From Capitulum mitella (Eukaryota > Arthropoda > Thecostraca > Pollicipedomorpha > Pollicipedidae), in assembly GCA_030062745.1 (NCBI GenBank), contig CP099840.1, positions 9,064,932-9,128,931 on the forward strand: a DNA stretch of 64,000 bases, given 5' to 3'. The notes beneath the pieces were generated by a model. It made no database searches. It saw nothing but the letters and a program-made list of their open reading frames with translations, and had not been told where the DNA came from. Positions 24,634 through 64,000 of the stretch are shown here, in pieces; position 1 is the stretch's first letter, and each line of letters opens with the position of its first letter. A program made the translations under genes and the position numbers.

Positions 24634-26100
24634 TTTTTTCTCCATCTCACTTAGTTTCCGCGGTGCCGGGAACTGCTCGATGTCCGCATCTGTTGCAGAC
24701 CTATCCCCATCTGCTGTCGCCTCCATCAGTGTGTCAGTGATGACACTGACCAACTCTGTGTCAAGTGACCAGCTCTGTGTCAGGGCTTCACAGATTTACC
24801 GGGCTCTCCTGAGCGGGCAGCTGGCACGCATGTGGCTGTCTCGAGCCGCAATTAACCTCGCTGCCGGTCGCAGTGCTGTCTGAGCCTATGTTATGAGGGG
24901 CTGGGCTGCGTGAAGTCGGGCCAAGATGTGCGGAGCTGACCTGGTATCGCGCTGTGATGCCTTCAGTTCTGGTGAGATCGCCTGCTCGGCGTCCCTCGGC
25001 ACCCAAACGTTCTCCACATGCCGGAAGTCATAATCCCCAAATGGGCAAATGAAGGGAGGTATGGGCCCCGTAGCCCTGAACGCACTCCCTGCTCTTTCAG
25101 CCGAGGCAACCTTAAGGAAGGCCTGACCGGTGATTTCTGCCATCTCATACTGTGTGATGCGCTGACCGGGGTGGGCCCGCATCCACTGAAGGGACAGCTC
25201 GGCCGTCTCGGCCTGGTATGCGCTGAAGAACCTCACGTCCAGGGGCTGGATCCTGTGGGACGTGTGTGGTGGGATACTGACCATGTGGATTTGGTTAGCT
25301 CTGGCGGACTCCCATATTTCTGCGGAGATGTGGGACTAGTGATTGTCCAGTATTAGGACATCCTGCCCTCACGTGCCCCACTCATGCACTGGAAGTGCCT
25401 TAGCCAGGCCAGGAACGTGTCAGCCGCCCATCCTTTGACTGAGACGGTGAAGATCGTCCCCGGAGCCGCCCCACGCTGGAGCTGCTGACTGAGGCGTTTG
25501 CGCGGGAAGATTATTTGGGGCGAGAGATGCACACCTGACGCTGACATGCAATGAGTGGTGGTTATGTTTATTCCCCTCTCCGCAGAGGCCACTGTTCCAA
25601 TGCGGCGTGCTCCCTTCGGTGACATGACCTTGGGTGGGCGTGGCACCGTGGTGTTTTTAGTTTCGTCGACGTTGTGCACTCGTGGTGCACCGGATTTGTA
25701 CTTGTCGTTATGTTCATAGAGCAGACCGTAGACCCGCTCCACAGGATCCTTTCTGAAGCCAAGAAGGCGATTGATGCTGATGGATTCTGGCGTTCTCGGG
25801 GTGATGTCAGGGTGACGCTTTCGGACCAGCCGCATCCACTTCGTTCCGGCCATTCCTTCACTGTCCTTCAACCCGTGATTCACTCCCTTCATGTTACCAA
25901 CGTTAAACACAATGCTGCGGATCTCAGTCTCGGTAAGTCCGTAGAACCTGGCGCTCATCTCCCAGATGCCGGTAACTATCTGTTCCTCACATTCTTCATC
26001 GACAATCCTGCGCGAGCCCCTCTTCTGGGCACAAGGTGAGCACCCTGATTTACTTCTGATACGATTGGAAACATGATCTTGAAGCGTTTTACTTGGTATT

Positions 26101-38230: not shown

Positions 38231-38372
38231 ATGCACAGCGTGGTGGACATGCCGCGCTCCGACCAGCCCAAGAAGCGGCGCACGCTGCCCCGCTTCTCGC
38301 TGCAGCACCTCATCTTCGGCTCGCCGCGCAAGAGGAAGTCGAGTCGTTCGGCGTCCCGCTCCAGCGCCAATG
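38231..38372 (+). CDS. RNF19-like exon 1 (N-terminal)
   Basis: Encodes 47 residues of basic, serine-rich N-terminus ([30 protein letters not shown]). ATG 38231 is the first Met of this segment; the frame is open upstream to 38108 but lies beyond an acceptor at 38226-38227. Ends in phase 1 at the donor GTGAGT. RNF19 proteins share a similar FSLxxLLxSP-like start, by recollection. Confidence 0.75.
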
Positions 38373-41300
38373 GTGAGTGAGCCCGATTGACACGGTGGTC
38401 GGCCCTGTGGCACGGGGATGGCTGGGTTCGCCCGGCGACCCGTTCGGCAGCCGTCGTTAGGCTGTGCGGGGCCTCATCGGGACCTCGGAACAGTGTCCGT
38501 TCCACTGAATGACGATGCAGTTTCGTTCTGTCACGTGACGCTCTCCACCGCCATCCTGATCGCAGAAACTTGTCAGTGGGGGGGGGGGATGAGAATACGC
38601 GTAATTGTCGATGCATGCTAAGCTCGCATGATATCAGGAGGGCTTTGGGCGTTGCGTTCATTGAATCGCTCGAGGACGGTATGTAGTAGCGATGCCCCCT
38701 TGCTGAGGCGCATCGTTCGCCAGCCCGTTGTCGCGGAGTCGTGGGTCGGCGGCGTGCTGCAAAGCTCTCCGCCGACGACGTGGGACGAAACTCCCCTCAG
38801 GAACGATCGATTGTGCCGCGCGCCCCGTGGCGACCGTCCGACGCTGTGGTCTGGACGTCGGCCCGTCCGGCCTTTGTTCGCTCCGACTGACGTCCAGCAC
38901 TGGCTCGGGAGACTGCGTGGCCGCTGTCTGACGGCAGGCTGGCTTGGTGGCCTGGCTGTGTGTTACCGCTGTCGGACGGTTATCCGGTCTGGTGACCTGC
39001 CTTGCCCGCCGTCTGACTGTTGCCCGATCTGTTGACATTTTCTTGCTCGCCGTCTCGCAGTTGCTCGACCTGGGGCCGTTTCCTTGGGCATCTGACGATT
39101 GCTCATCGGACTGGCCCCTGATTAACCCTGACCTCCTGTTTCGCCAGGTCAGCCGGACAGGGTCATCTCACTGGAGAGCCTGGCCGTGGCCGGGCCGTCC
39201 CACCTGAGCGCCATGGACGCGGTCAGTCAATGGCCGCCCGCCGCCGTCACAACTGGAAACCGCCCCCGACCCCGCCCCCGCCCCCGCCGCCTTCGCGACG
39301 ACCTCAGAATAACTCATCCAGGCGCGGCGGGAGCTTGCCCCAGCCTCCACTTGGCCCTTGGCTCGCCCGCAGCTAAGATTTTGTCAGTTGTAAACTCGTC
39401 CGATCTCCGTGTGGTTGTCGGTTTCAGATAACGTTGATCTGAGGTGCTAAGCATTCTTTGTGTGGACAGATTTTTAAATTATCCTACAGTTTTATTCGGC
39501 TGGCCCCCGTCCGACAGTGTGAGGGCTGCAAGAGAAGGTAACTGTACAGTTTTTGCTTGTTTCGGCCTAGCAGCTCGTTTACGTAACGTCAGCTTGTGTA
39601 AGTCTGGCGACGTTTTTCTAGCGGACGCTCGAGACGACACAAAACTGCCGCGTGCCGAGGCACATTTGGTCTGAGCAATTCTGTTCTGGCCTGCCGGCTC
39701 TGTCGGTTAAACAGTGCGCCCCGTTTGCGGCGCCAGCTGTGGATGACAGGCTGAGGGCCTGGCAGCTCGGCCTTCTGCCCGGGTGTCTGCTGCTGGCTGG
39801 CTGCCGGTGACTCCGCCTCCGCTGCAGCCGGCCGAGCGGCAGCTGGCCCGTCGTACCGCTGGAAACCGTGTCTGTTATCCCCGGACCTGACCCTGAACTG
39901 CGGTCTGCCGCGGCCGGACGACCGGAAACGCGACGGAAGAGTGTCGAACGTTGCCGGCCTCGTGCTCAGTGTGGCTGGCCCTCCGTGTGTCGCCGCGGAT
40001 CAGTCAGGACGGGGATGTGCCCCTGGCGCTATTGATTTTCTGTCTAGCCGGCCATCACCTGTCTGACGGCGTGCTGCTGTTCTCAGATCAGCGAGGACGT
40101 GACGATCGAGTGTCCGGTGTGCCTGGAGACGCTGCCGGCCGCCAGCTTTCCCCGACTGACCTACTGTTCGCACAAGAGCTGCCGCTCCTGCCTCAAGCAG
40201 TACCTGACGATCGAGATCATGGAGTCGCGGGTCCGCATCCTGTGTCCGCAGTGCAATGAGCCGCTCCACCCCACTGGTCAGTGGCGCCCACAGTGGCGGC
40301 AGCACCCTCAGCCCAGCCGGGCCGGGCCCTTGCTCACGGTTGGTCTGCGTGTATCATGGGTCTTCTTGGACTTGTTGTGTCACCATTAGCTAGAGTCGCT
40401 TTTATGACGAGCTGAAACTATTGAATTTTTTTGTCATGGCTGAAGCTATTATGACATTTTTCTCAAGAAGAAGACGTCAGCACAAAACTGTGATTGCGAA
40501 AGCACCGAAGCCGTGTCTTATTAAGTTTCTGTATGGGAAAATGAGGCTCGTTTTAGGGATTGCACAGTTTTGCAGTACGTGAAAAGGACATCAGCCAAAA
40601 CGTTACACCATTAGCACTGTTTTGCTACTGTGTATGATTTGCAGTGTGTTTTAGCAATGGCCGTTCCCTGAAGAGAAGTTGGACGTGTCGCGGAACATGG
40701 GATTAATTTGCGACCGCTCATGTAGGTCATGCTCCGCGCAGATTCTTCTTAGCATTCGAATGACTGCTATGTGCGTACTCTGTCCTTATAACGAATGCTC
40801 ACCTTATCCCGCCGTGGATGCTTTGCATTTGGTGGGGATCAAATGACGCTTTTTGTGTCGCCGACAGACATAAAGCACATTGTGGATGACCCGCTGCTGA
40901 TGAACAAGTACGACGAGTTCATGGTGCGGCGAGCGTTGGCCACGGACGCCGACGCCCGCTGGTGCCCGGCGCCAGACTGCGGGTACGTGGGTTATGGGTA
41001 GCTGGTGTCAGGCGCGAGACTCCAGTCCAGCAGCTCGTGTGGGCTGCGGGACTGGGTACGTGGGTTAGCAGCTGTTGTTGGCGCCAGACTGCGGGTTTGT
41101 GGGTTATGGCTACCTGGCATCTTGTGTCAGGTACGAGCTATACTGGATACTTGTATTATGGGCAGGTCCTGGCCTGTGCTAGGGTTAATGATGACTGCCG
41201 TGGGATGTGGGATACAGGTAGCGTTCTGCATATATCTTTGAGCATATCGGTGGCGCTACAAAACAAACAATGAGTTTAAGTTCATGTCCTTCGGAATTTT

Positions 41301-44300
41301 TTTTCTCCGTTTTCTTTTTGAGAACTTTCAGAGAAGTTGTCTGACTTTGTATGTTTTTTGGCGTCTTTCTCGGAGCGATGCCTTTGGATTCTTATGACGT
41401 ACCTTGACGTGAGCGTCGCCGACGTCTCGCTCATCGCCGGGCCAGGGTCTGTGAGACGACGCTGTCGCATGTTGTTGCCGAGCCTGGATCGCCTCTGTGA
41501 CGACTCTGTTTTTACTGCCGGTCGCTGCTCTTGAGACCGGGCGTCGCCCCAGTGACGGCGTTGTCGCTCTCGACGGGCGTCACATCGCCCCTGCCGCGAT
41601 GGCTGCGCCGTTTATGACGTCAGCGCCCCCTCCCCCGGGTTTTCCCGCTGTGACGACTGATGTCGCTCTCGTCTGTGCCTGCGAATCTGTATAGTCATTT
41701 AATTATGTGTTGCATATATCCGTGGGTTCCAAAACACTTGGCTGTTACCACCGCGCCGTCATACAAGTGCAAAAAATAGAATACAGTGGATAGATAAAAG
41801 AAATGTCAATAAAAATTACTAAACTAAGGGAACCGGGATCACACAGTAAAATATGGCTGACAAGCAAACGAAGTGTAGCCACCTGATTGAAAGAAACAGC
41901 TCTGTGTTGTAGTTTTCCTCGTCGTCGAATTCTCCTCCGCCCATTATTGCAGTTTTCTCGAAAGCATTGGACGGTAAATCACGATTCTAATCCGATTTCT
42001 GCCAGTCAACACCCGCATGCTGCCTGTTAAATAACTCGACCATTGAGTGGGTGACTGCCAATTCACATTCGATTTCAGGGTGGCGCCCATGATGCTGCCT
42101 CGGCCGCGGTCCGTCTCAGAGCTGGTGTCGTGTGCTGGCAGGTACGCCGTGATCGCGGCCGGCTGCGCCAGCTGCCCACGGCTCGAGTGCGGCCGGCCCG
42201 GCTGCAGCGCCTCCTTCTGCTACCACTGCCAGGCCGAGTGGCACCCGAACCAAACCTGCGACACGGCGCGCTCCGAACGGCTGGCGCAGTTCCGCTCCAG
42301 CGCCGGACAGCAGTCCCCCACCAGTTCCCTCAGTGGTACGTCTGTAGGTCACAGCAGTCCCCCACCAGCTCCCTCAGCGGTACGTCTGTAGGTCACAGCA
42401 GTCCTCCACCAGCTCCCCCGTGGTACGTCTGTAGGTCACAGCAGTCCTCCACCAGCTCCCCCAGTGGTATGTCTGTAGGTCACAGCAGTCCTCCACCAGC
42501 TGCCCATTGGTACGTCTGTAGGTCACAGCAGTCCTCCACCAGCTCCCTCAGCGGTACGTCTGTAGGTCACAGCAGTCCTCCACCAGCTCCCCCAGTGGTA
42601 CGTCTGTAGGTCACAGCAGTCCTCCACCAGCTCCCCCAGTGGTACGTCTGTAGGTCACAGCAGTCCCCCACCAGCTCCCCCAGTGGTACGTCGGTAGGTT
42701 ACAACATTCCCACCACCAGCTCCCTCAGCGATACGTCTGTAGGTCACAGCACTCCTCCACCAGCTCCCTCGGCGATACGTCTTTAGGTCACAGCAGTCCC
42801 CCACCAGTTCCTCCAGTGGTACGTCGGTAGCTTACAACATTTCCACCAGCAGCTCCCCAAGTGGCACGTATTTACGTCGCAGCATGTCCCCACGAGATCC
42901 CTGGGTGTTACGCATGAAATCATATCACAGCAACTCCACACGGGCCGTAGAATGGCATGACTTGAACGGGAGAGCTTCCGGAGTATAACGACGCACCTGG
43001 TAGCAGTCATTGTAGACTGATAGGCCATGCTATTCTGACATCTGTTCCGATACCTGGCAGTCTGTTCGCCTCGTACTCTGACATCTGTCTTGACGTGCCG
43101 CTGTCCCAGGTAGGTTGACACGACATTTGATAGGGGAAATTCTGAAGGCACCGTAGCGAATGCTGCACAATGCTCGATCAGACGTCGGCAAGTCAACCTT
43201 CTGGACAGGCCTCGGTCGGCCAACTTTCATTAGCGATTGTGGCGCCCTTCTGTGCTCAATAAGTAGTATATTGTCAGCGGCGATAAAGTCTGTCTGATGG
43301 TCGTATTCTTGCGCCACACAAAGCAGTAGGAAAGGTATATGCTTTTTTAGTTGTATGTGCAAGGCATTGCGTTGCGTGTCTTTTATGGGCTTTGTATTTC
43401 TGTGTTTTATTTACGTAATAGCCTGTTACAAATTTAACAGGCTGCTGTTTTCATGTGGGACTTTCGTCTCACGCTTTGGTAAACATTAAGTCTTCAGAAT
43501 CATGCAGCTGCTGCATCAGTGGAATTTTCGTTTGCACTGTTCATAATTTAGTTTTGCAGCACATGACGCAGTACGACTAATGTAGGCCTATTTACGGTTT
43601 CGTTCGTTTGCCTGTTGCTGTTGTTTCTGGACGACATGTGGTCTGTGACGGTACGCCGTAGATGAAGTGGCGTATTATCCTGTTTTACAAAGTGCTGTCC
43701 ACCTGCCACAAAAACCCCAAACACATGTTATACACGTGTATGCGCTGCCCTAGGAATTCGTACTACCTTGCGACACTCCCTTTTGCGCGGAAGTTTTCCC
43801 AGGGAAGCCTGCTGGCTGGCATGTGTGAGTGCTGTTCAATTTCTGATGTCTTTTCTGAGATGTCTTGGCACCCCCCCCCCCATGTGCTCTTCGATGTTTT
43901 GGCCCAGAGGACGTCTCTCGTACCCAGGTGTGTGCTCGGTTACGTTTTCGTATTAACAAGACAGGAGAGGACGTGCGAACCAAATGGTTCCTTTTTGTGC
44001 AGCCCTTTATGGTTCATGTTATATTTTCGATGGCACGTCGCCAATTGAAATCAGCTTGCGTCGGCGAAGTTACTGAATCTCCCTTCCTGCTGTCCGCTAC
44101 AAGGCTTGTCAACGCGAACATTTTGTTTAGTGATAAATATAGGAGATGCAGTTCCTTCATTGAAATTGGCAGCGTTCGTCCTCCATGGCGCTGCCCGGGT
44201 TGCAAATGCTAGTGGGCTTTGGGTTGGGTATTGTTCACTCTTGGTTGGGTCGTTCCTGTCCTGGGCACCTCGCGAGGTGGCTTGCCGCAGCTGCGACGCC

Positions 44301-47300
44301 GGCTGGTGCTCGGCTCCGAGTTTGAACACCGTCCTGCTTTCCGGATCAGATCAGTTAGTCAGTTGTCGGGTGTGGGTCGCGAAGCGTACCACTAGTGTAA
44401 TGGAAGTTCGCAAGACTGGACGAAAACGGAAATGGACAAAGTAAAGACAGGCGTAGTGCACGCTACGATACGTCTTGCGTTCTGCCTCGCGACGCGTGAG
44501 AAGGGAGGGAGGACAGTTTGGATTTCGCGGGCCGTGCGCGTTTGAGACTGCGCCGGTTTCATCAAATGCCGATGAAATTCCACTGCGTCGTTAAACTGAT
44601 TCCTCTTTTGTTAGGTTGCTAGGGTGCCGTGATATGCCTTTTTTGTTCCCACGCCTCGCCGAAGAATACAAGTGGTTATGTCGGTCGAATATGAGAGCTT
44701 TCTTGGCGCCCTGTGGTATATTGCGCTTGGATAGCTTGGATCATTTTCTCTCAGCGTCAACTCATATTTCGTGATTTAGTGTTCCATCATTCTTTGTATT
44801 TGTCGAGGGTTGGCGATTGTGATTGTATTTTTCCTGACATCCTTGTCTTTGGGATTTGACCGCTGCTACTTAATTCCTTTGCGTTTTTTTGCAATACCTG
44901 GACACGGTGCCTCATTTGATGAGCGCAGTTATGCGTAGAGACGTCTTACCAGTTGGTCGTGCTGATGAATGTATGTGTGCAGTCAAGCACTGCGTGAAAG
45001 CCTTAGGTCCGTTCAGCCCTCTATTTTTACCTGTCACTGTTTGAGATGGGCGATGTGAAGCCGTGACTGACCGGCGCTGCGACACAGCATCACAGTAATC
45101 TGCTGCATTTACCTCGACGGCCCATCTCTCAGTCACAGTGGACCGCACTGGCGTTTCGGGGGTGTTCAGGTGGAGCCACTCACTGCGTTTCTTTGGGCCA
45201 TTACCGTATGTCCGTGGTTTTGGCGTGTCTCAGAGAACTCTTTCGCGAACCAGTTTCCCATTGGCCTGCTTTGAGCGGCGTGAAGCGCACGTGGCGTAGG
45301 AGGCGGGTCGCCGGGCGTCTGTGGAGCTGACACTAACTGCCAGGTCCACTCTTAGGTGACAACATCAAGAACTGCCCGCGGTGCCGGATCGTGATCGTGA
45401 AGATGGACGACGGCTCGTGCAACCACATGACATGCGGACTGTGCGGTGCAGAATTCTGCTGGCTCTGTATGCAGGAGATATCTGACCTCCACTACCTCAG
45501 GTCAGGCCCAACACGCGACACTGTACCTTGTCGAGACCTGCTGGTCCTGCATGCTGCAAATGTTTAACCTCCAGTACTTCGGGTCAGCTCCCTGTTATCA
45601 GTCGCACGCCTGTGTGCGCGTTTGAGGACGCCAGCGCTGTCGGCTCGTTCATCCAGCGCAGCGGGGACCGTCTGACGCTTCCCTCCCCTGGCCGCAGCCC
45701 GTCCGGCTGCACCTTCTGGGGCAAGAAGCCATGGAGCCGCAAGAAGAAGATCCTGTGGCAGCTGGGCACGCTCGTGGGCGCGCCAGTCGGCGTGGCGCTG
45801 CTGGCTGGCATTGCCATGCCAGCGATGATAATCGGTACGGCCTGGGGCGCGGCCACGTCGGCCGAGCGCCGGGCCCCACACGCGCCGGATCCAGCATTCA
45901 TGGCCGTCGGGTGGCCGCCGGTCCGCTGTTCCCCTGCGACGCCCGATCGCCGGGGGTCCCGTGTGGGGCCGCCCACCGTCGCCGGTGCAGGGGCGCCGGC
46001 AGACTTGGCACCACTGTGTTCCGTTTGTTTGTCGTGGGGATGGTCGTCCGGAAAGTTTTGTCGCGAAGATTTACGCTCATGGAAGCTTCCGGGCTTTTAC
46101 AACGGGTGGGCAGGCGGGTGTGTTCTGCTGTAATCATTTGATGTACCTGGTTGTGTTCAGCGGTGCGGCATTGAAAAACACGAATAAAAGCCCTATATGT
46201 TTTTTTTTTTTTTTTTTACCGAATGTTTCGCAGTTTCACGGGCCGTCCGCTTGTGTTTCACGTGTGTTGCGTGCGCGTAACGGCTTGCATTGTATTCCTG
46301 TCTCTGACTCCGTGCCTGTGACTGTGTGGGTAACCCGTCCCCGCTTTTCGCCAGGCATCCCAGTGTGGGTGGGCAAGAAGATTCAGACCCGGTACAGGTC
46401 GAGCAGCCGTCACCGGCGTAACGCGGCCATAGGCGGCGGGGTGCTTCTGGCGGTGAGTACCGACCGGCGGTGGCCCGCCTTGGTGCCTGACGCCCGACAC
46501 CCCTCCCCGGCTCGGAGGACTGACGCGAGCCGGTCCGAGCTGCTGGATGTTCGCTCCGATCGCTGACCCTCACACAGTGTCTCTCACTCACTCACTCACT
46601 TTCAGTCTCACTCTGCTGCGGGTGACGTTGAGCCGCCTCCAGTGGCGGCCAGGCGGTCTGGAATAATTGGCTCTGCGGCGCCGACTCAGCGGTGTCGGCC
46701 TCCGACGGCCCTGGCCGCGCGGCTTTGATCTGATTTACTTCATCGGCCGCTCGGCGCCGGCGGTGACGGCCCTTCAGCGCTGCGGTGTGTGCGAAGCCGG
46801 CGGACGGCGGCGTTCGTTGTGAGCGCCACCTGTTGCGATCGAACAGCAGCCGCTCGGGCGGGGGCGGCCCGCTTCGGCGCTGGGGCCCAGGGATCGAACG
46901 CGATCGGATGGGAACGCTCCACCGCCGACGTGCGGGACTCAATAACTCTGAGTAGCCGAACTCCGGCGAGGCGACGCCCTTCACTCGTTTGAGTGCAGGC
47001 TGAATTACGTCCTCAGTTGGGTTTGGTCCCGGCGGCAGTGTTCAGGTTGAAATGAGAATCTCCTCCAGGAGCCGCTTCGCCCGCTTTTGTGAAGGACAGT
47101 TTTCTCCGAACGGTCGTTCTCGCTCTTCTGCGAATAATTGCTTGTCCGCATTACGTCCAAGGGACAGACCATGAGAGGAATCTGGATGATCTTCGAACTC
47201 TCAAAAGAATGGACGTTAGTGTCGTGCCGGCTGCGATTCGTTATCATTGGGACGTCCCTCAGCTAAGGACAAAACGAAAGGGCCATCGCTGGCCATTAGG

Positions 47301-53300: not shown

Positions 53301-56300
53301 GGCGAGAGAGTGGACTGGACGAGGAATGGACTGTTTTGATGGTGATGGGGACGGCTGTGATGGCCGGACGATCATCACGTGCGGGTGACAGTAGCCGCCG
53401 ACTGTCCAGCTGTCCTGCGGGCGCCGAGACGCCCCGCCGGCGTGGTCCGACTGCAGACCGCGCCAGGCCGAGCCGCTCACCCTCCACCTGACGCGACGCT
53501 CGATCTCACACGGGTGCACCAGTATCACAGCCGGCCGGCCGCGCTCCCGCCGCCCCGGGACCGGGACTGTCGCGGTCACGCCGCATCCGAAACAGGACCT
53601 CTGGTCCCGCCGTGTCCGGACCGGCACTGCCGTGGACCCGCCGAGTCCGAACCAGGACCTCTGTGGTCCCGCCGTGTCTGGACCAGGACTGCCTTGGCCC
53701 CGCCGAGTCCGGACCAGGACCTCTGTGGTCCCGCCGTGTCTGGACCAGGCATGCCGTGGTCCCGCCGAGTCTGGACCAGAAGTGCCACTGTCTCACCGTG
53801 TCTGGGTCCGTATTGCCGCGGTTCTGTGGTGTGATGCCATCGTGCAGAGGGCGGCGGCAGAGCGTGGCCAGTCCTCGGCTGTCCTGACGCTGCTTTCGAG
53901 TCCTGTCTTCTGGAGAGCGCTGGACTGGCACTCTCTGGTCACCTGTGCGTCAGCCTCACGTCTGGCTGCAGGAGGCGAGTACTGGGGGCGCCCGGTCGGC
54001 CCGGTGTCAGCGGCAGACGGCGTCGGTCACCGCCGACGGAGCTGTCGGGCGGCGCCCGGTCCGCCGCGCCCGGCGCCGGGCCGCCGCTCGGCCGGCCGCC
54101 GCTAGAACACGCCCTCGGCGTACATGTCTGTGAGCAGCGCCAGCAGCCGCTGCTCGCGCTGCCGGCAGCCCTGCGTGACGTCCACGGAGCCGGCGCAGAG
54201 CAGCAGCGCCAGCTTCCTGCTGCGCCGGAAGTCCTGCTCGAGTCGCTCCAGCGAGTACTCGTACTCGGTCTCCAGGCTGATGCCGAAGCGGCCGGCGGTG
54301 GCGGTCAGCTCGGCCCAGTAGTGCTGCAGCAGGGCGGGCGTGCGCGCGCGCCGCACCTCGGCCGACAGCGACGAGAGCAGCAGCAGCGCCACGTCGTTGG
54401 TGGGCGTGCCGACCTGCGCCAGCTGCCAGTCGACGACTCGGCAGCGCTCTCCGGCGTCGTCGCCGTCGTCGCGGAAGAGCAGGTTGTTGCACCAGAAGTC
54501 GCTGTGCGTCAGCGCCGACAGGTGGCTCTTGGCGGTGACCAGGCTGTGGAAGAGCGGCGTGTTGTCGGTGACGTACGTCTTGAGGCGCGTCACCACGCCG
54601 GCCAGCTCGGGCCGCTGCAGGCTCTTCAGGAAGTCGATCAGGTGCGGCAGGCCGCGCCCCAGGAAGTGGTCGTAGAGCACGGCGGCCTGCTGCGGCCGCA
54701 GCAGGAAGTCATACTTGGCCAGCAGGTCGACGCCGTCGCGCACGCGCATGGCGAATGTGGAGGCGTGCAGGCGGGCGGCCTGCGTCAGCGCGGCGCGCGC
54801 CCGCTTCTCGGTCAAGCACTGCGAGAAGTCGGCCAGCCGGAAGCCGTCGGCGCGCAGGTCCTCCAGCACCAGGATGCTCTCGCAGTCGGGCTTGTGCTCG
54901 GCGTGGTAGCAAACGGGCGCCACGCGCGGCAGCGGCGCGCCCAGACAGCGGCGCTGGAAGGCGCGCACGTCCGGCAGCAGGCGCCGGTAGACTCCGATCT
55001 CGCGCTGGTCGAAGCGCGACTCCTGCACGGTCAGCCTGCTGACGGGGTCCTGCGGCAGCAGCTTGGCCACCAGACGCGCCTGTCGGCTCTCGCCGCCGCC
55101 GCCGCCGCTCCTGAAGCGCACCGTGATGGCCAGCAGGTCGCTGAGCATGCTGTCCCGCGCGTCCAGCGCGTTGATCTCGTAGTCCTCGACGACGGGTGCC
55201 GGCGCGTCGGCGTCGGCGTCGGGGTTGGCGCCGCGCTCTCGCTCCAGGTAGGCGACCAGCACCGTCTCTAGCCACGCGTGGGTGATGCTCTCCTCCCCAG
55301 ACATGGCGCTGATGTCCTCAGCAGGTCCAGCCGACAGTCCAGCGCAGTCTCCGTCCGCTGTTGGCAGAGAACAGATGTCAGCCTCTGAGCACTGCGGTCA
55401 GATGGTACGCTTAATGACTACATCGTCACCTGATTACCGCCGGTACAGTCACGTCGTCACCTCATCACCGCCACCAGCCACGTCACCGGAGTGACGTCAT
55501 CGCGTGATCACCGCCACCAGAGCGGCGTCATCACTCGATCACCCCCACCAGAGCGGCGGCGTCAACTGATCACCGCCACCGGTATCACGTCAGCATCTGA
55601 TCACCGCCACCAGAGTCACGTCACCACCTGATCACCGCCGACAGCGCTCCGCCATCGACTGACTGATTACCGCCAGCGAAACCACATCACCACCTGATCC
55701 CCGCCTCCGTGGGAGGACAGGCTCCGCGGCCGTTGCTAGGTTACAGTGCGGCGGCGGCGGGCGCGCCGGATTGATTCGCGGATGTCCGCTCGGACTTCAG
55801 CGCCGCCCGGCCGCCCGCCGCCACTAATGAGGCCGCCGGCCGGCTCGGCCGCGACGAGGGGCCGTCAGGCGGCTCTCCCCGCGCCGGCCGGACGCGCTCG
55901 GCGGCCGCTCCACGGGCGACGCTGACGGTGCCCACAGCCCGGCGGCCGGACGGCTCGGCCGCGGACCGACGCGTGCTGACGGCGCGGCGGAGCGGTCCGT
56001 CTGCCGCCGGAGACGGTCCGCCTCACGCGCGGCTCGCCTGTCGCTGCGGCCGCCTCAGAGGAGTCGGGCGGCCGGTCGCTGGGGTCCGCCGCCGCCGCGT
56101 CGTTGGAGGGAGGCGGTGTTTGGGTAACGGTGCGGCACGGTCACCGTGGCCGGACGCCATTGCCGGGCTGGCCGGGACGCCATCAGCCGAGTGCGGCGGG
56201 CCGCGGGCAGAGGAGGCGCGGCTCTATTGCCGGACGGAAAACGCCGCCGCCGCCACCGCCGTCGCGGCTGAGGTCCGGCACTCCGCGGCAGGGCTCGACT

Positions 56301-59300
56301 TGTTTCGTTTGTATATGGGACTGTGAAGGAACTTCATCGTCCGAGGCTGCATTGCTTGGAATGTTCCAAGCCATTTGTGGACTCGGCCGCAGGGTTCACC
56401 TCCATTTGCGGCCGTTGTGTCGCATCATTACTTATCCAGTTTCATTAGGTTGAGGCTTTCTGGGGCTATTTCGGACGCGTTTTGGCCCTCTGCCGAGGAG
56501 TGCAGTGAATGAAATGTTTTTTTTTTCATTTGTGCTGTCATGTTCCAGAAAGAATTCCGCCCAGCAAAGGAATCGTATCCCTAGGTTTTCGATTTGTCCG
56601 AAGAGTTGCGACATTGTCATCATTGTAACCTCGCTCCGTAGTATGTCGACTACCTCAAGCTCTCCGAGCGTGCTCACGGCGAGCGTTGTCCGGGCTGCGG
56701 ACCGGAAGGGGCCACATCCGGTGCGCCGGTGCCGCCGGAAGTGGGCTAATGCCGAGTGCGGCCCATCATGGCGGCCGGACGGGCGACTGCCGGGCCGCTG
56801 GCCGGCCGCCGGTGCCCGCCCGGTGAGCGGCGGCGGCGGCGGCGGCGGCGGAGGGGCGCACCAGCCCGTGATCGGTCGGTCGACCGGCGGGGCCGCCCCG
56901 CGTCGATCGGCGCCGGAAGATGGATGGACGGCGGCTGCGGACCGACGACGACGTGTCCTGTGTCGCCGGGCAGAAGCTTTGTCGGGCGCCGGGCGGGGCC
57001 CACAGGCGGTGCCTTGGCAGCAGGCCGTTGTGCGAACCTTCCCGGCGCAGAGGGCCGGGATTCAGATGTGATGGACGTGTGCGCTTCAGATTGCTTGTAG
57101 GACAAAACACGACAGCGGCGTGCAGGTCGCCTAGTCAGCGAGGTTTGCCCCTCTTACGATCCCGAGCCTTGCTGGTCGCAACGAATGAAAGAAATCAGTC
57201 ACGAATGTTAAACGCGTCGCTAACAAGACGCGCAGTGAGACGGCGTGTCTGCGCCGAGGCTAATGAGGCGGCGGCGGCCCAGGGAGCCGGCGAGCGCCTC
57301 CGGTACCGTGCAGTTGCCGCGCTAGCAGGTGGCGGCGGCGCCCGACTCTCTCGCTCTCTCTGTCCCTCTCACTCTCTCTCTCTCTGTCTCTCTCTCACCT
57401 GATGACGCGGACGGACGGGCCGGGGTGACGGGATCGATGGGCCGCGGCCGCTGCCGCCGCCGCCGCACACCTGGCCTCAGGGGCGCTGCCGGGCCACTGC
57501 GGCCGGCGGCGGGCCCCGCGCCGGCCGCCGAGCCGCCACAGTGGCCGAGCCCCGCCCGACACCGCTACCCCACACCGCTGCCCCGTCACGGCCGGTCTGG
57601 ACGCCCCAGCGATTCGGTGCAGCCGCCGTGCGAGATATTTCTTTTGTTTTGTTTTAGGTCACGGCGCTGGGTACTTGCTTTGTTTTAGGCATCAAGCGCA
57701 GGAGGAAATTTGCTACATGGTCGTAGTTCATGCAGTTTTTGGAAGTGACGTATTACACGTTTAAGTTTTCTTTCAGAGAAGGAAATGTGAGCACGGGCAC
57801 ACTGTGTATATAAACCGCTTGTTGTTATGTCGTTCTCTAAAATATCTTCAGTGGAACGAGGGGATGTGATTATGAACGTGGCACTGGAATCTTTGAAAGT
57901 CGGTAAAGCCGTAAACATGTTTGAAGCCGTTTTCATTGGAACGTGATACGCCTGTAACGACTTTCCAGCAGATGCCCGTCCCATACTCGTCAAACGCTTG
58001 CTGATATGACGTTGCCCCTGTAGCACTGTTTTTAAAATTTGCGAAACGTTTCGAATCATACAGTTCCAGACACACTTGTTTCAGAATGGATTTCGTAATT
58101 AAAATATAGGCAAATTGCGTTCAGTTTCAGGTGACATTTTCGAGGTTTTTAAGCTGTTGTGGCGAATTTTCCTCGAACAGCTCCGTAATTCTGGCACTAT
58201 TTTCGGTAAATTCTTGGCGCGTGCATATGGCAGCGCGACGCGGGACACGGCCTGCTAGCCACTGGCTTGGCTTCGCTGCCCACCCCACGCCGGAAGCTGG
58301 CGGAGGTCAAAGCTCCGGCGCCGCCGGCCAACCGTCACGCCGAACCGGCGCGTGACGGCGCCGTGACGTCACGCCGCCCGGTCGGTGTCGTCACGGTGGC
58401 GCGCCGGGAACGTGAGGTGACGTGGAACCGGCCGGCGGCGCGGGCGGGGCCACTGCATGTTTGATGTGGTTCGAGCCGGTTTGGAGCGGCGCCGTTACGG
58501 GCCGGGCTGGGCGGTGTCGGTCGTGGAGTCGGGGCGACCTTCTGCTGGGTCGGCACGGGAGCCGCCACGAAGTGCTGTTGCAGTTAACCGGCGACGGCTG
58601 TTCGTTGTAATCGGTGCCGCCGGGCAGCATTGCCGTGATCGGCCATGCCCCCCCCCCCCCCCCCCTATCGACGGGACGATGGCGACAGATCCACACTGTC
58701 CGGCTCGTGGCGGCTGACCCGGGGCGGCGGCCGGCGGTGGCGTGGACGTCTGTGTACCCAGCCCCGCTCGTCTGAGCCGTTCGGCCCGGCGGCGATCAAA
58801 GCTGGCGTCCGGCGGCGGGCCGGCTGGGGCACGGCGGCGCCGTCACCGCCTCGCCCGACCGGCCACCCGTCAGTCCTGCCGGCGGCGGCGGCGGCGGCCT
58901 GGCCAGCCTGATGTCGGGCCTCTGTCCCCGGCAGCCGACGGCGTGACGAGCCGCCGTCACGCGCCAGGCGGGCGTGACGTGACGGGACGGTGTCTTGTCT
59001 TGTTTGTCGGCGCGATTATCGGTAAGGCCGGATATCATTGCGGTGGCATAGTGAAGTCCGGCTTTCGCGACGTAAAATAGGCTTCCTGAACGGGCCGTCT
59101 GTGGCTCTGCATTACGATGTCTTGTAGCGTTTTAGTTTGTTCATGCTTTGGAAGTGCGTACAGGTACTGTTTACATAGTTTGCATTCGCGCCGCAAACAG
59201 AGAGGGTGTTGGCGAATTTAGGAATAGCGTGACGCCTGGCTGCTGCAGGTTAGGTAGCGTTGCATACGGCGAAGTGCTGGCATAGCCTCATTCTGATACT

Positions 59301-62300
59301 CTTAGTCCGGGTACATCGACACATTGCAAGAAGCAGTGCTCCATCGTCGTCTATTCTCAGAAATAGATTTGGTTGGTCAGAAAGCGTCGCTGGCCGTATT
59401 TTCAGCACCCGGTTCTCCGAAAATATGTGGAAAAATATGAAACGCAGAACATATGATTAGTCAGATATTATGTTTTGACGTCGCCCATTTATGATGACGC
59501 ATTACAAATATTCCGTTAACGTCCACTGGCCGCGCTGGCTCACAAGAGCTGGTTGTTGGACGTGGATGATTAGAATACGGGGAACTTCCCGGAAGTCACT
59601 TTGAATGTCTGTGAAAGTTGTGAGGCGTACTGTTTGTTTGAAATCGATTTCTAAGGCTGCAGGCTATTACTTTTAACTCAGTCCAAAATTTGTGCTGGAA
59701 TTGGGACATTCCTTTCAAGATGCGAAGCGTGGCATTTGCTTCAAGGGTTCTCACTGCTTTTTGCAACAGTGGCTCGGGTGTTCACTAAAGCGTTAAAGTG
59801 CTAAAGGGTTTTCCATGCCCTTATTTTGGGTGACTGTTCTCATCATCTGGTCCTTTCACCAGACGTTTCTATTGCCGGTAGTTTCCATCGGTGTATCAGT
59901 GCAGATGAGCGTCGTTCTAATGAAAGCCTCTAAGCTGCATCTTCTACAGCTAAGATATGTACGTTGTGCGGATCTAATGGAGAATGCGGCCTTGACTGGA
60001 CTGACCTGCCCAGAAGCGGTCACTGCTCGGCGCTGCCTCGTCGCCCTGCCATCTGTCGGATGTTCCCTGCCGGACTCAGTCTCGGCGCTGGGCCGTCCTG
60101 GGTTGTCTGGCCCCAGCACCGGATCGCTGCCGGCCCCGGGTCAGGCAGTGGGCGACCTTCTGTCGCCTGTGCCGACACCCCGCGGACCCCCTGTGGCGCC
60201 GGCCGCCGGCTCGGTCAGCTGATGACCCTCTGTCGTCGGTAGCGGGTCTCGACCGGTTCGAGCCGCCCTCCGGGACAGACCGTCCAGCCGATGACCCCGG
60301 CGCTGGTCCGCGGCGGCGGCGGCGTCCGGTGCGTCCCCTCCGCTTGGCTGCCCCCGCTGGTCTGCCCTTCGCCGCTGGTCTCTCCGCGGCGGCTGGTCTG
60401 TGCGCAGCTGACTGGCCGGCCGCCGCTGTCCGAGGCGGCCTCTGCGCTCTTGGTCGGCGTGCCGCCGGACCGGGCCGACTCGGCGCCGGTCAGGAAGCCC
60501 CAGTGGCGGCGCCAGTGGTCGCTGGCCCGCTGCTCGCGCCGGATGCGCTCGGCCCAGATCAGGTGCTGCCGGTGCAGGCTGCTGTCGAGGCCGCCACGCT
60601 CGGCCCGCGCTCGCCCGGCCGGCTGGCTCATCCGCGGCCGGCGGCGCGCTCGGCGGCGGCCGTTGAGGTCGCCCTGGCCGGCCCGGAGGCGCCGGCGGTC
60701 CTGCGGCGCGCCCTCGGACGCTCACTAGCCGCCTCCTGCAAGACCCAGCCGCGCCGCCGCTGTAAAGTTGGCCTCCAGCTCAGTCAGGCCTGGCATTCCA
60801 CAGACGGACGCGACATCTAACACAGGCCTTTTCCTTGAGTAGGAGCTGTGGCAAATGGTCAAGAAGGTACTCGGCGTCTTGACTCGTCGACTGTAGCCTA
60901 TTGCGGCTGGGTTTTGCGTGTCTGCGAGGACCTGTGCCTGTGCGTGTTGCGTGCTAGGACTACAGCCTTCTTACTGGAAGCCGGCCGTGTGCCTGCTGCC
61001 AGCGCTCAACAGTCGAGACGCTTCTGGCTGGTAGTCACATCACGTGATGTGGCTTTTTCAGCGTCTCGTTTCCTGCCAGACGCGGGATTGCGACAGTGGG
61101 CTTTCTCGTCGTGCTGCTGGAGATTGACTTGGACATGTTTATCGGGGAGGAGTGGACTGGGTTTTCAGGCTGGGATGTTACAGTAGCCGCTTGGTATCTT
61201 TTTTTTGTTTGTTGTACTGGGCTGGTAATGTCATAGTGGCGTTGCGCTGGCTGTGTTGGTGAGACAGTGGGTGAAAGCGCTTCGGATTTGTTGAGCATTA
61301 AATAAAAATCCTCCTGAGAAATTCCCGTCACGTGTCGAGACCACAGTACCAAGTCGTTTTCCGTGGGCCTTGCCGGCCGCGGCTCTTGTTGCGTGGGTCA
61401 AGTGCTCCGACATACCCGCGCGTACCGCTGTGTGTCCACACTGATGCCATGATACTGTCTCAGTAAAGCGACACGATCCAGTAGCCGCGCCCCTTTGTAC
61501 ATCGCTATAGCGGTGGCAGCTTCTCACCTGGGTTCAGCGGGCCCGGTCCGGCAGTCTGGTCCGGTGGTCCGGCGGCCCGGTGGTTCGGCGGTCCGGCGGT
61601 CTGGTCCGGTGACCAGCGGTCCGCTGGTCTGAGGCCGTGTCGTCGGCGCGGCGGTGCCGCCACCACTGACCGGACTCGCTCGGGAGGTCCGGGCCAAGGC
61701 GCCGGCCCAGCCGCCCGCAGACTTCCCGTATCGACCTGGCATCACCCTGCTCCGCCCCTCCCCGCCCCGCCCCGCCCCGCCCCACCCCGCCCTGGCTACC
61801 GGCGACCGCAGGACACTGCCCCTCTGACTGCCGAGTACCAGCAGCGCACACTGAGGCACCCGGGGCACACAGGTGTCGGTCGGCGTAGGACGACCCGTCT
61901 CCGCTGCTGAACACCGATAAAAGGCGTAGTTCCTCCCTTGGTCGCGAGCGACTGTGTTAACCCCGCAGCCGGCTCAGTGCCCCGTCCCAGCTAGTTCAGG
62001 GTACTGGAAACGTCAGATCGTGTTGAGAACATGACGGACTTGAAGTGGCATGCTGGACACGATGCATATGTTATAATAAATGGGTGCTGGCGCTCTCTGT
62101 TGTGTTTATCAGAATATTTCCTATTAAGTTCTTAGTCTGCAGTTACTGGCTCGATTTGCACATTTTCTCTCCGATATAGTCTTAGAAATCGGTCTAATGT
62201 GGTGCGGTGCAAGTTGTAAACAGATCTCGTCCCTTCTCGTCTTGTCCTTGATTGTCTTGGCTCACGTTAAAGTAGTTTACCACCTTGCTGGCCGCTGTGG

Positions 62301-64000
62301 TTATGAGCATTGTTGTGGCGTACGTTCTGGGCCGTAGATATGCCATTGCGTTTGTCGTGTTCATTGCACTCTGCGCTTGCAACCCTCGGTCCAGTCCGCC
62401 ACCTGTCGGTGTGCCTGCACGCCGCAGTTGGCTGCCTCTCACGGGCGCTGACCTGGCCCGCCATTTGTGGGCGTTCCCTCACACTGACACGGCCCGTGTC
62501 GGCCTTCAGGCGCTGACCTCGCCGGCTCTCTCGCTGATGGCCGTCAGTATCGGCGTGCCGATCCTGCTGGCCTACATCTACGGCGTGGTGCCGTTCTCGC
62601 TGTGTCGCGCCGGCGGCTGCGGCCTCTCCACCACCCCGCAGGGCGTGCGCTTCGAGTTTGATGACGAGAACGACGCGCTGGACCTGGCGACCGGCGGCCG
62701 ACCGGCAGGTGAGATGGGCGCCGAATGACCCTGTAGTCGGTGCGCCCCTAAGCCCCAATAACCGACCAACCAACCCGGCAGGTGAGATAGCAGCAGGAGA
62801 AGGGGTGCGGGGGGGGGGCTCAGTCGGCGCCGACGGCGGCCTTTTTTAGAAGGCAGGGGTGAGGGACTGTCGGAGCTTCGGGCCACGGAACGCTCAACAT
62901 TACCGTCGGTGGATAAAAGTTGGTTTGTTTCCCTATGTCTTTGGATCGCGGAACATATGGATGCGCTGTTTTTCTGTACTGTTGCGGTGTGAGTGTTTCA
63001 GGGAAGCTTTTTATACTGGCCATCATTCACATTGGGTGCGTTGTTAAAGCCACTTGCCTGTTTCGTTTGTGTCGCCCGTCGTCACCTGCCACTCAGGACC
63101 GATTTGTGCAAAGGCGTCATTCCGCTGACGTCCTCGGGAGACCCTTCGTTTTTATCATCCCACATACCTTGTTTAAACTGAGGTGTCTTTTCCTCCACTA
63201 GCAGCGTATTTGAGCCTCCATCCAGTGTCTAGTCGGGAACAGTTCGAGACGTCCGCGAGTATGTGACAAACGTCGAATGACGCTGGTACTGACCAACGCT
63301 CTGATGCGTCGATGCGGCTTGCTTCATCAGCACATACGTCTTGCGTCATCAACACAGTCACGTGGCCAGCCGTGCGTCGTTGTATTTTTGACGCGAATCC
63401 CGTCGCTCCTGTGTTGATCGTCACGACGTGCTGAGCTCTGCTTGGAAGGTCCGCCGTCATGTGCCTGCCGTTTGACGCAGTGCGTGTGACCGTTGCAGAC
63501 GCCACCAGCACGGACACGCTGTCGCACCGGCCGAGCACGCCGTACCCGTCGATCGGCGAGGTGTCCGGCCTGTGGTCGTCCGGCTCCCAGCTGGACCGCG
63601 CCATCGCCGGGCCCGGAGAGAGCGACCGCGAGTCGGCCAGCGTCACGGCCGTGGCGCCCGACAGCCTGACGCCGAGCGTCTACAGCGGCGCCAACAGGTA
63701 ACCCCGGGCACAGGGTAGCGGCAGGAGACCGTGGAGACGGTGCCAGACGGCCTGACGCCCGGCGTCTACAGCGGCGCCAAGAGGTAACGCCGGGCACTGA
63801 GCAGCGGCAGGTGGTGTTTAGATGTGGTGGTACCAGGCTGTCCGGTACCCAGTTTTTGCAGTGCTGGCCGTTGTGTCTCTGCAGAGACAGAGGCGCCGAC
63901 TCGTGACGGCCGGTCGCAGCGAACGGAGCGGCACAGACAGTAGCTGTACTGTATTGTATTGTTGCTGTCCACAGCGCAGTGGCTCTGCGACGCAGAGGCT
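38231..64000 (+). CDS. RNF19A/B-like RBR E3 ubiquitin-protein ligase (3' end beyond window)
   Basis: This is the Dorfin/NKLAM orthologue, a membrane-anchored RING-between-RING ligase that takes ubiquitin from an E2 onto a RING2 cysteine and then onto substrates, probably at the ER. Coding exons: 38231-38372, 39148-39221, 40087-40276, 40868-40982, 42142-42335, 45356-45500, 45698-45834, 46355-46452, 62510-62708, 63499-63697 and, tentatively, 63975 onward. All introns are GT-AG and phases agree throughout. About 506 codons are present against about 840 in human RNF19A. RING1 starts at residue 81, IBR near 168-218, RING2 at 245-276 with catalytic Cys 260 in SCNHMTC. Membrane segments lie near 300-325 and 358-390. 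The large intron 46453-62509 hosts two opposite-strand genes. Several exon ends are followed by duplicated exon-intron junctions. Confidence 0.92.
39148..39221 (+). CDS. RNF19-like exon 2
   Basis: A 74-bp exon between TTCGCCAG and GTCAGT encodes a linker ([20 protein letters not shown]) before RING1. Supported by exact phase continuity on both sides. Confidence 0.7.
40087..40276 (+). CDS. RNF19-like exon 3: RING1
   Basis: Encodes the first RING: CPVC (residues 81-84), [15 protein letters not shown], and CPQC. This finger docks the E2 (UBE2L3 class in vertebrate RNF19). The text IEIMESRV and [12 protein letters not shown] is characteristic of the RNF19 family. Acceptor TTCTCAG, donor GTCAGT. 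Confidence 0.9.
40277..40867. other. Intron 3 of the RNF19-like gene
   Basis: Unremarkable intron; no element or RNA recognised. Confidence 0.6.
40868..40982 (+). CDS. RNF19-like exon 4: RING1-IBR linker and IBR start
   Basis: Encodes [20 protein letters not shown] and the start of the [12 protein letters not shown], as in RNF19A/B. It ends in phase 2 at GTACGT. The exon end and donor are partly repeated in the intron just downstream (40968-41130). Confidence 0.9.
40968..41130 (+). repeat. Duplicated exon 4 end with donor region
   Basis: GGCGCCAGACTGCGGGT with a following GTGGGTTATGG occurs at 40968 (exon end plus donor) and at 41080, 112 bp apart. A partial copy (GGGACTGGGTACGTGGGTTA) lies between, near 41048-41067. 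Confidence 0.75.
42142..42335 (+). CDS. RNF19-like exon 5: IBR
   Basis: Encodes [20 protein letters not shown] and then [16 protein letters not shown], the rest of the IBR zinc-binding domain, then a linker ending QQSPTSSLS. Acceptor CTGGCAG, donor GTACGT. The last 28 coding bases and the donor form the first unit of a 44-bp tandem array that fills the start of the intron. Confidence 0.9.
42308..42905 (+). repeat. 44-bp tandem array carrying the exon 5 end and its 5' splice site
   Basis: About 13 units begin at 42335, 42379, 42422, 42466, 42509, 42553, 42597, 42641, 42685, 42730, 42774, 42818 and 42863; later units are more diverged. Each unit equals the exon-end text CAGCAGTCCYCCACCAGCTC plus CCTCAGTG and the donor GGTACGTCTGTAGGTCA. 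At least seven units keep a perfect G|GTACGT donor. The true exon supplies the first half of the first unit. Confidence 0.92.
42906..45355. other. Remainder of intron 5 of the RNF19-like gene
   Basis: Past the tandem array nothing was recognised. Short open frames on both strands lack family resemblance. Confidence 0.5.
45356..45500 (+). CDS. RNF19-like exon 6: RING2 (catalytic)
   Basis: Encodes the RING2/Rcat domain: CPRC at 245-248, [16 protein letters not shown] with the catalytic Cys at about residue 260, then [17 protein letters not shown]. The catalytic Cys forms the ubiquitin thioester in RBR ligases. Ends in phase 2 at GTCAGG. A diverged duplicate of the exon end follows at 45538-45584. 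Confidence 0.92.
45456..45592 (+). repeat. Diverged duplicate of the RING2 exon end
   Basis: The 45 bases before the true donor (45456-45500) and 45538-45582 align without gaps at 33 of 45 positions, and both are followed by GTCAG. The copy, in the corresponding frame, still reads CWSCM...NLQYF against CWLCM...DLHYL. Confidence 0.8.
45698..45834 (+). CDS. RNF19-like exon 7: first membrane segment
   Basis: Encodes [20 protein letters not shown] followed by a glycine/alanine-rich hydrophobic stretch ([20 protein letters not shown]). The basic segment before it and the long hydrophobic run are a signature of RNF19A/B and anchor the ligase. Donor GTACGG. Confidence 0.9.
46199..46219. repeat. Oligo-T tract
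   Basis: About 19 uninterrupted T in the intron after exon 7. Confidence 0.9.
46355..46452 (+). CDS. RNF19-like exon 8: inter-membrane loop
   Basis: Encodes [16 protein letters not shown], a basic loop (SSRHRRN) and the first residues of the second hydrophobic segment ([10 protein letters not shown]). Ends in phase 0 at GTGAGT, followed by the 16-kb intron. Confidence 0.88.
48657..49897 (+). mobile_element. TTAA-target non-autonomous DNA transposon, family C
   Basis: Left end TTAA (48657-48660) then CCCTCATCCGTAT, AGGGGAGGGG and a hairpin GGGGTTG-ATG-CAACCCC. The right end is the inverse: CCAACCCCTCCCCTACACG ending in TTAT at 49894-49897, a worn TTAA. About 1.24 kb, no transposase. It shares with families A and B the TTAA target, CCC start, subterminal G/C hairpin, a following CTGAGGTTTT block (as in B) and TGACCT-rich text near 49380-49765. 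Confidence 0.7.
49985..50150. repeat. Two-copy direct repeat
   Basis: TCTGGAGTCAGTTCGAYGCG with downstream TGTCCTGCCG occurs near 50027 and 50109, each preceded by a T-rich tract (GTTTTTGTTTTT) and GGGCTGCC text. Spacing about 82-83 bp. Confidence 0.75.
50300..52500. other. Intronic sequence without recognisable features
   Basis: Apart from the short ATTTGTACG repeat I see no gene, RNA or bounded element. Confidence 0.45.
51745..51805. repeat. Short ATTTGTACG repeat
   Basis: Five to six imperfect units of about 10-11 bp (GGATTTGTACG, CATTTGTACG). Confidence 0.8.
53590..53829. repeat. 31-bp GC-rich minisatellite
   Basis: About seven units alternating ACCAGGACCTCTGTGGTCCC plus GCCGTGTCTGG with ACCAGGACTGCCTTGGCCCC plus GCCGAGTCCGG. 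The unit of about 31 bp shifts frame each time, which explains overlapping long open frames in several frames. Confidence 0.8.
54102..55304 (-). CDS. EcKinase/CHK-like small-molecule kinase
   Basis: A complete 400-residue, single-exon frame from ATG (55304) to TAG (54102). It belongs to the EcKinase-like (DUF227, CHK kinase-like) family, relatives of choline kinase and aminoglycoside phosphotransferase; insect members phosphorylate ecdysteroids or detoxify compounds. Visible features: LVAKLLP with the likely ATP-binding Lys at 81, [14 protein letters not shown] (Glu near 102), hinge ILVLEDL at 144-150, catalytic loop [13 protein letters not shown] (His 267, Asp 269, Asn 274) and metal-binding [10 protein letters not shown] (Asp 292), then [13 protein letters not shown]. 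Length is normal for the family, and no residue looks lost. A polyglycine run at 67-71 is a local expansion. It lies inside an RNF19 intron on the opposite strand. Substrate unknown. Confidence 0.92.
   Translation of the reverse strand: MSGEESITHAWLETVLVAYLERERGANPDADADAPAPVVEDYEINALDARDSMLSDLLAITVRFRSGGGGGESRQARLVAKLLPQDPVSRLTVQESRFDQREIGVYRRLLPDVRAFQRRCLGAPLPRVAPVCYHAEHKPDCESILVLEDLRADGFRLADFSQCLTEKRARAALTQAARLHASTFAMRVRDGVDLLAKYDFLLRPQQAAVLYDHFLGRGLPHLIDFLKSLQRPELAGVVTRLKTYVTDNTPLFHSLVTAKSHLSALTHSDFWCNNLLFRDDGDDAGERCRVVDWQLAQVGTPTNDVALLLLSSLSAEVRRARTPALLQHYWAELTATAGRFGISLETEYEYSLERLEQDFRRSRKLALLLCAGSVDVTQGCRQREQRLLALLTDMYAEGVF
55424..55710. repeat. Roughly 40-bp minisatellite upstream of the kinase start
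   Basis: Six to seven imperfect units built on GTCACCACCTGATCACCGCC and ACCAGAGC. It starts about 120 bp upstream of the kinase ATG, so it sits in its 5' flank, and carries repeated TGATCA and TGACGTCA-like words. Confidence 0.8.
55740..57640. other. GC-rich island without secure coding
   Basis: CGG/CCG-rich text gives long frames on both strands with no recognisable domain. It could contain an alternative promoter for the kinase or the RNF19 gene, but nothing specific supports this. Confidence 0.4.
57343..57402. repeat. (CT)n-rich microsatellite
   Basis: Imperfect CTCTCT tract with GT and CC interruptions, about 60 bp. Confidence 0.9.
57641..60140. other. Intronic sequence without recognisable genes
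   Basis: A GC-rich patch at 58260-58990 includes an oligo-C run (58648-58665). The remainder is AT-richer. Frames are short or compositional. Confidence 0.4.
60215..60631 (-). CDS. Ciliary microtubule inner protein 1-like (C20orf85/LLC1 family)
   Basis: A 138-residue single-exon frame, ATG 60631 to TGA 60215. The N-terminal block [20 protein letters not shown] with WGFLTG (residues 24-49) and the C-terminal [13 protein letters not shown] (114-126) match the two conserved blocks of the C20orf85/LLC1 family (IW..R...E..A...W...WGFLT and IGW...PG..LE). The family is known as CIMIP1, a protein bound inside axonemal doublet microtubules. Between the blocks lies a Ser/Gly/Thr-rich, poorly conserved segment, also usual. 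Vertebrate genes have several exons; this one has none visible. It lies opposite to and inside the RNF19 intron, about 5 kb from the kinase. The match is from memory of the family motif, so the name is likely rather than certain. Confidence 0.68.
   Translation of the reverse strand: MSQPAGRARAERGGLDSSLHRQHLIWAERIRREQRASDHWRRHWGFLTGAESARSGGTPTKSAEAASDSGGRPVSCAQTSRRGETSGEGQTSGGSQAEGTHRTPPPPRTSAGVIGWTVCPGGRLEPVETRYRRQRVIS
61540..61640. repeat. GGTCCGGCG-type minisatellite
   Basis: About ten imperfect 8-9 bp units (GGTCCGGTG, GGTCCGGCG, GGTCTG). Confidence 0.85.
61747..61795. repeat. CCCCG pentanucleotide repeat
   Basis: Six to eight units of CCCCG with one CCCCA variant. Confidence 0.9.
62510..62708 (+). 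CDS. RNF19-like exon 9: second membrane segment
   Basis: Encodes [20 protein letters not shown] and then [13 protein letters not shown] and [13 protein letters not shown], all family signatures. Phase 0 in, phase 1 out at GTGAGA. The short text CGGCAGGTGAGAT at its donor recurs 75-80 bp downstream. Confidence 0.9.
62695..62790 (+). repeat. Repeated donor text after exon 9
   Basis: ACCGGCAGGTGAGAT at the exon 9 donor is echoed by ACCCGGCAGGTGAGAT near 62775-62790. The match is only about 15 bases and may be chance. Confidence 0.4.
62709..63498. other. Intron 9 of the RNF19-like gene
   Basis: GT-AG intron with no recognisable gene or element apart from the donor echo near 62775. Confidence 0.6.
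63499..63697 (+). CDS. RNF19-like exon 10: cytosolic tail
   Basis: Encodes a serine-rich tail with [20 protein letters not shown] and [10 protein letters not shown], matching the conserved NPSIGEGS-like and SGSHMDRIGA-like blocks of vertebrate RNF19. Acceptor CGTTGCAG, donor GTAACC. The exon end with its donor is duplicated 86 bp downstream. Confidence 0.85.
63650..63812 (+). repeat. 86-bp tandem duplication of the exon 10 end
   Basis: CCTGACGCCGAGCGTCTACAG with GCGGCGCCAACAGGTAAC at the exon 10 end is repeated, slightly changed, from 63751 to about 63812, including the GTAAC donor and the following CCGGGCA. Reading on from the first copy meets TAA at once. Confidence 0.9.
63975..64000 (+). 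CDS. RNF19-like exon 11, partial (tentative)
   Basis: Acceptor TGTCCACAG ends at 63974. Joining in phase gives SAVALRRRG, which could correspond to the SGSAMV-like block of the family. Only 26 bases are in the window. The earlier candidate acceptor at 63884 leads quickly to a stop. Confidence 0.4.

Follow-up and report, generated by a model that had tools for sequence, protein, structure and literature searches.

Minisatellite-like tandem duplications of exon-intron boundaries, termed mirages, have been described in amphioxus, where the reported cases include Adh3, the globin genes BflGb6 and BflGb9, TnC, and PGBD5 (PMC3087553, PMC3902484). Both papers connect mirages to intron gain. A review covers the related model in which new introns come from exon segments with AGGT that have been tandemly duplicated in the genome (PMC3443670), and related reports of intron gain concern potato RdRp (PMC4974935) and near intron pairs in Drosophila (PMC2891723). 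A literature search aimed only partly at crustaceans found no boundary duplications in a crustacean.

The window analyzed here is a 64,000-nucleotide stretch (G000:C2:9064932-9128931) of a Capitulum mitella assembly of 477 Mb in 16 contigs. It contains coding exons 1–10 of an RBR-ligase gene, probably RNF19-like, as the preliminary description also named it. The product is predicted to carry the RING-IBR domains of an RBR ubiquitin ligase: the Pfam IBR profile matches at 5.3e-20, IBR_1 and zf-C3HC4 also exceed their cut-offs, and the top PDB matches are the RBR E3 ligases ARIH1 and ARIH2. When joined, exons 1–10, the first of them taken from its start codon, give 497 codons in one open frame; all ten donors are GT and all nine acceptors AG. 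Exons 11 and 12 lie beyond the window (L002). Their donors are without copies, and among the self-comparison matches listed none spans either of their acceptors. The coordinates of the gene are as follows.

38231..63697, plus strand: coding exons 1–10 of the RNF19-like gene, a single open frame; the gene runs on past the window end
38231-38372, 39148-39221, 40087-40276, 40868-40982, 42142-42335, plus strand: exons 1–5
45356-45500, 45698-45834, 46355-46452, 62510-62708, 63499-63697, plus strand: exons 6–10

Tandem Repeats Finder and self-comparison place direct repeats across four of the ten donors in the window, those of exons 4, 5, 6, and 10, at offsets of 112, 44, 82, and 86 bp, respectively. 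They bear out the preliminary description, which had listed tandem copies of exon ends together with their donors at these four exons. A junction was counted as spanned when an ungapped self-match scored at least 15 and reached at least 4 bp to each side of it; with a 6-bp margin instead, exon 6 is lost and three of ten donors are left. By the same criterion as for donors, none of the nine acceptors in the window is spanned by a copy, as had also been claimed, and the start of exon 1 is likewise without one. Exon 9 had been put forward as a possible further case with a period of about 78 bp. It was left out here, since its score of 14 is too weak. The copied donor lies 73 bp downstream, not 78. 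The repeats are listed in order along the gene.

40968..41005, plus strand: exon 4 end and donor, first copy (self-comparison)
41080..41117, plus strand: copy of the exon 4 donor region in intron 4, offset 112, 89% identity over 38 bp; donor text weakened to GTTTGT
42307..42902, plus strand: exon 5 array, 44 bp x 13.5 copies; unit 1 is the exon 5 end and donor (42335|42336), and the remaining units are intronic
45456..45505, plus strand: exon 6 end and donor, first copy (self-comparison)
45538..45587, plus strand: diverged copy of the exon 6 end in intron 6, offset 82, 76% identity over 50 bp
62702..62715, plus strand: exon 9 donor, identical to 62775-62788 over 14 bp, score 14
63653..63725, plus strand: exon 10 end and donor, first copy (self-comparison)
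63739..63811, plus strand: copy of the exon 10 end and donor in intron 10, offset 86, 86% identity over 73 bp

The copies at exons 4, 6, and 10 are pairs, with a third, partial copy at exon 4 (GTACGTGG text starting at 41056, plus strand), and exon 5 has a multi-unit array. Two neighboring units of this array are identical and most are diverged (72% over the array). Splice-site text is often preserved: G|GT is kept in 10 of 13 exon 5 units, and GT is retained in the copies of the exon 6 and exon 10 donors. This retention would fit secondary donors that function in splicing and yield alternative or unproductive transcripts regulating the gene, but we regard such a role as improbable. The copy donor at exon 4 is weakened, read-through past donors 4, 6, and 10 reaches a stop ahead of the copy donor, and use of the second exon 5 donor, 44 bp on, shifts the reading frame, so only the first donors preserve the RNF19-like protein. 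GT has also been lost in copies at three of the five donors with copies (L081, L106, and L108) in the sample of other genes described below.

The donor copies of the RNF19-like gene are boundary duplications of the amphioxus-mirage kind, in an arthropod genome rich in short tandem duplications. As in the mirages described (PMC3087553, PMC3902484), the tandem unit spans a real junction (here at exons 4, 5, 6, and 10), multiplication can be minisatellite-like (44 bp x 13.5 at exon 5, the other three being pairs), and many copies retain splice-like text. The period ranges are similar, at 10–160 bp in amphioxus and 41–215 bp here (best match per case). Both 5' and 3' boundaries are affected in amphioxus, as they are in the present genome, where copies were found at 7 acceptors and 5 donors of 120 sampled exons, the RNF19-like gene having them at donors only. 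Undisturbed mRNA splicing and array lengths that vary between haplotypes or tissues are further marks of the amphioxus mirages; on the first point, reading frames in the RNF19-like gene call for the first donor. Unlike the amphioxus cases, those reported here belong to a different phylum, were counted over 120 exons with introns, exon cores, and random positions for comparison, and are known from the sequence of one assembly; the RNF19-like gene has four, all on the donor side. The AGGT model of intron gain (PMC3443670) shares with this locus a tandem duplication that takes in exon and splice-site text. It differs in that the present copies come from junctions already in place and sit in introns already in place, with no enrichment of AGGT. 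In that model a duplicated exonic AGGT supplies both ends of a new intron, whereas the copies found here consist of an exon end and an intron start and lie within existing introns.

Tandem copies are not confined to the junctions. Self-comparison of the window gave 91 matches with a score of at least 15, compared with 0.25 per Markov sequence of the same local composition (20 trials), which excludes chance similarity. The 91 matches form 24 clusters spread over the whole window, of which 20 are without simple repeats. Tandem copies span 7.3% of positions in the RNF19-like gene region. Random 10-kb stretches from nine other contigs (18 loci) have between 0 and 15% of their bases in copies, simple repeats included, and in 232 random 760-bp windows 3.9–4.7% of positions are covered.

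Junctions elsewhere in the genome were surveyed in 120 internal exons from profile searches for kinase (67 of 138 matches) and myosin-head (53 of 86 matches) domains, each exon with 190–280 bp of flank per side. Exons were picked by eye from the match tables, with the sequences unread beforehand, as profile-internal matches free of stops. Rows that were terminal, full-length, or interrupted by stops were excluded; some rows in a long shared frame were dropped and others kept, some eligible lower-scoring myosin rows are absent, and the last 20 exons joined after the first 100 had been counted. Paralogues are included, so the exons are partly non-independent. The rule fixed first accepted a copy within 25 bp of the profile-match end at offsets up to 250 bp, and the later count took junction-spanning copies at offsets up to 300 bp.

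Copies span 5 of 120 donors (95% interval 1.4–9.5%) and 7 of 120 acceptors (2.4–11.6%; Fisher P value 0.77). Together these are 12 of 240 junctions (95% interval 2.6–8.6%), and the share of events at donors is 5/12 (95% interval 15–72%). Other score thresholds gave 7 donors versus 8 acceptors (at 12) and 4 versus 6 (at 18), and the looser 25-bp zone rule, applied to the first 100 exons, gave 7 donor zones and 5 acceptor zones. Coverage by tandem copies is 4.2% in the upstream and 6.3% in the downstream flanking introns, and 0.38% in exon cores. Junctions at either exon end thus carry duplications at roughly the rate seen in introns and random DNA, whereas exon interiors hardly ever do.

Acceptor copies occur in L027, L028, L029, L052, L127, and L128, and donor copies in L081, L099, L106, and L124. 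Two of the 12 cases are marginal, the L108 donor (score 15.5) and the L124 acceptor (16.5). At the L027 and L052 acceptors, the repeat upstream in the intron comprises the pyrimidine tract, the AG, and the opening 36 (L027) or 12 (L052) bases of the exon; the L028 acceptor has several repeat units. The donor arrays of L099, L106, and L124 resemble that of RNF19-like exon 5; the L106 donor was placed 24 bp past the end of its protein match. L124 (1-668), a kinase exon, has copies at both ends, its donor lying in a 69-bp array of 98% identity. The same arrangement is therefore present in other genes of the genome, which supports the suggestion of a genome-wide habit of this lineage.

Assembly errors could account for copies that are perfect, such as the L052 copy (100% identical over 68 bp) and the two identical adjacent units at exon 5. 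An artifact of this kind is extremely unlikely as the source of the copies in general: the two members of each pair differ at exons 4, 6, and 10 (89, 76, and 86% identity), most exon 5 units are diverged as well, and similar structures lie on several contigs.

The preliminary description had also proposed a mechanism aimed at donors, in which slippage or repair at AGGT/GGTACGT text duplicates exon 3' ends; a process linked to transcription or splicing would have the same outcome. Within the RNF19-like gene the distribution of copies (four donors and no acceptors) favors such a bias, as does the excess of 4/12 donors over 5/120 in the sample (Fisher P value 0.004), although this gene was chosen post hoc because it was conspicuous. 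Elsewhere acceptors are as frequent as donors (7 versus 5 of 120), with 4–6% of flanking intron positions and 4–5% of random positions covered. Equal rates at acceptors or random positions had been named beforehand as the outcome that would speak against the proposal, and they are what the 120-exon sample and the random windows gave. Nor does AGGT appear to act as a trigger. Among the duplicated units at the 18 random loci, counted by cluster, AGGT/ACCT is present in 13 of 65, compared with 13.6 expected, and GGTACGT is found at no place in copies and at six places outside them. Counted per base at the same loci, AGGT occurs at 4.0 per kb in copies versus 3.3 and its complement ACCT at 8.9 versus 3.4 per kb; we read the ACCT excess as a few arrays counted repeatedly. 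We therefore consider a donor- or AGGT-directed mechanism very improbable. Of the earlier interpretation, the lineage habit is supported and the directed mechanism is not.

The RNF19-like gene is nevertheless unusual. At the sampled rates and at the coverage of the gene region itself, the chance of at least 4 of 12 donors with copies is 0.1–0.9% per gene, so that several genes of this sort would be expected among thousands. At 7.3% coverage alone, the probability of at least 4 of 10 donors is about 0.004. The lack of acceptor copies in this gene, among 11 acceptors examined, has a probability of 0.40–0.60 (computed for 12 acceptors) and is unremarkable. There may still be a local or gene-specific excess of donor copies. 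Exon-core coverage in the gene is 2.3%, because its copies extend into exon ends.

Short tandem duplications very probably arise anywhere in this genome, those that span junctions surviving with the outer splice site in use, and the process is not specific to donors. Duplications (offsets of 20–400 bp were examined) would arise wherever they fall, with slippage, unequal exchange, and repair as candidate mutational sources, and some would expand to minisatellites. Exon interiors lack nearly all of them, presumably through selection. The one retained within coding exon 11 of the RNF19-like gene (L002:3554-3646) is 45 bp long, a multiple of three, and repeats 15 residues in frame. A duplication spanning a junction would persist if splicing kept the site adjoining the exon body, that is, the first donor or the last acceptor. 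The extra exon text would then end up in the intron, leaving the protein unchanged and the copy free to decay. Exon definition would favor the splice site next to the exon body. In the sample AG is kept at all 12 copy sites at acceptors and GT at 14 of 19 at donors. In 27 of 31 cases, use of a copy site would bring in a frameshift, a stop, or both. The remaining four (L052, the L124 acceptor, and two of L099) keep an open frame and, as far as their sequence indicates, might be usable in splicing. Junction choice in the sample prefers the site nearest the protein match, so the intronic position of the copies is in part a product of that choice.

Paralogous exons provide some indication of how long boundary copies last. 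Among nine paralogous kinase exon pairs with at least 70% amino-acid identity, acceptor copies are present in both members of two and in neither member of seven; among 22 paralogous myosin exon pairs, neither member has copies. The two pairs are L127/L128, which we take to be CDK-like, and L027/L029, presumably GSK3-like. The upstream introns of the other seven kinase pairs and the downstream introns of all nine do not align above the shuffled level. L127 and L128 also share the intronic portion of the repeat unit: one of the two L127 units scores 17, compared with 6.2 ± 1.3 for shuffles (0 of 1000 score as high), and the other scores 10, a value attained in 1.5% of shuffles. For the acceptor copies of L027/L029, common ancestry was considered and rejected, because the intronic portion of their unit fails to align (score 5.0, attained in 81% of shuffles). 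Although two pairs are few, they suggest that some boundary copies outlast the rest of the intron or re-form at the same place. A further possibility, which we put forward only tentatively, is that boundary copies are long-lived: they would pass on when genes duplicate, and conversion or unequal exchange with the conserved exon would keep renewing them as the remaining intron becomes unrecognizable. If so, they would amount to a lasting reserve of surplus splice sites that could give rise to new introns or alternative exon ends. An ancient genome duplication has been reported for barnacles, in a source that puts another Capitulum mitella assembly at 512 Mb (PMC11331182). A close paralogue of the RNF19-like gene was sought for dating its copies and none was found; three other places match it at 53–55% over about 36 residues.

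If about one in 20 junctions carries near-copies, the genome would provide a very large number of natural experiments on spliceosomal choice among near-identical sites, as well as a measurable source for intron gain by tandem duplication. Junction copies are also a warning to gene predictors, in which they could produce false exon ends.

Several other features lie in or next to the window. An ecdysteroid-kinase-like (EcKL-like) gene with a single frame is nested on the minus strand at 54102-55397, within the 16-kb intron 8 of the RNF19-like gene and on the opposite strand to it (Pfam EcKL, 2.2e-46). It is flanked by minisatellites with a 31-bp period at 53545-53805, where units alternate, and at 55420-55708. 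Third codon positions are very GC-rich (0.925 over 898 codons) in the coding exons of two genes in the window. Just past the window are two long and nearly uniform arrays, one of 64-bp units at L002:2883-3420, upstream of exon 11, and one of 58-bp units at L002:8828-9464. At 3028-5900 and 24886-25335 on the minus strand are retrotransposon reading frames (reverse transcriptase and RNase H domains) and a weak DDE_1 transposase match that is barely above the cut-off.
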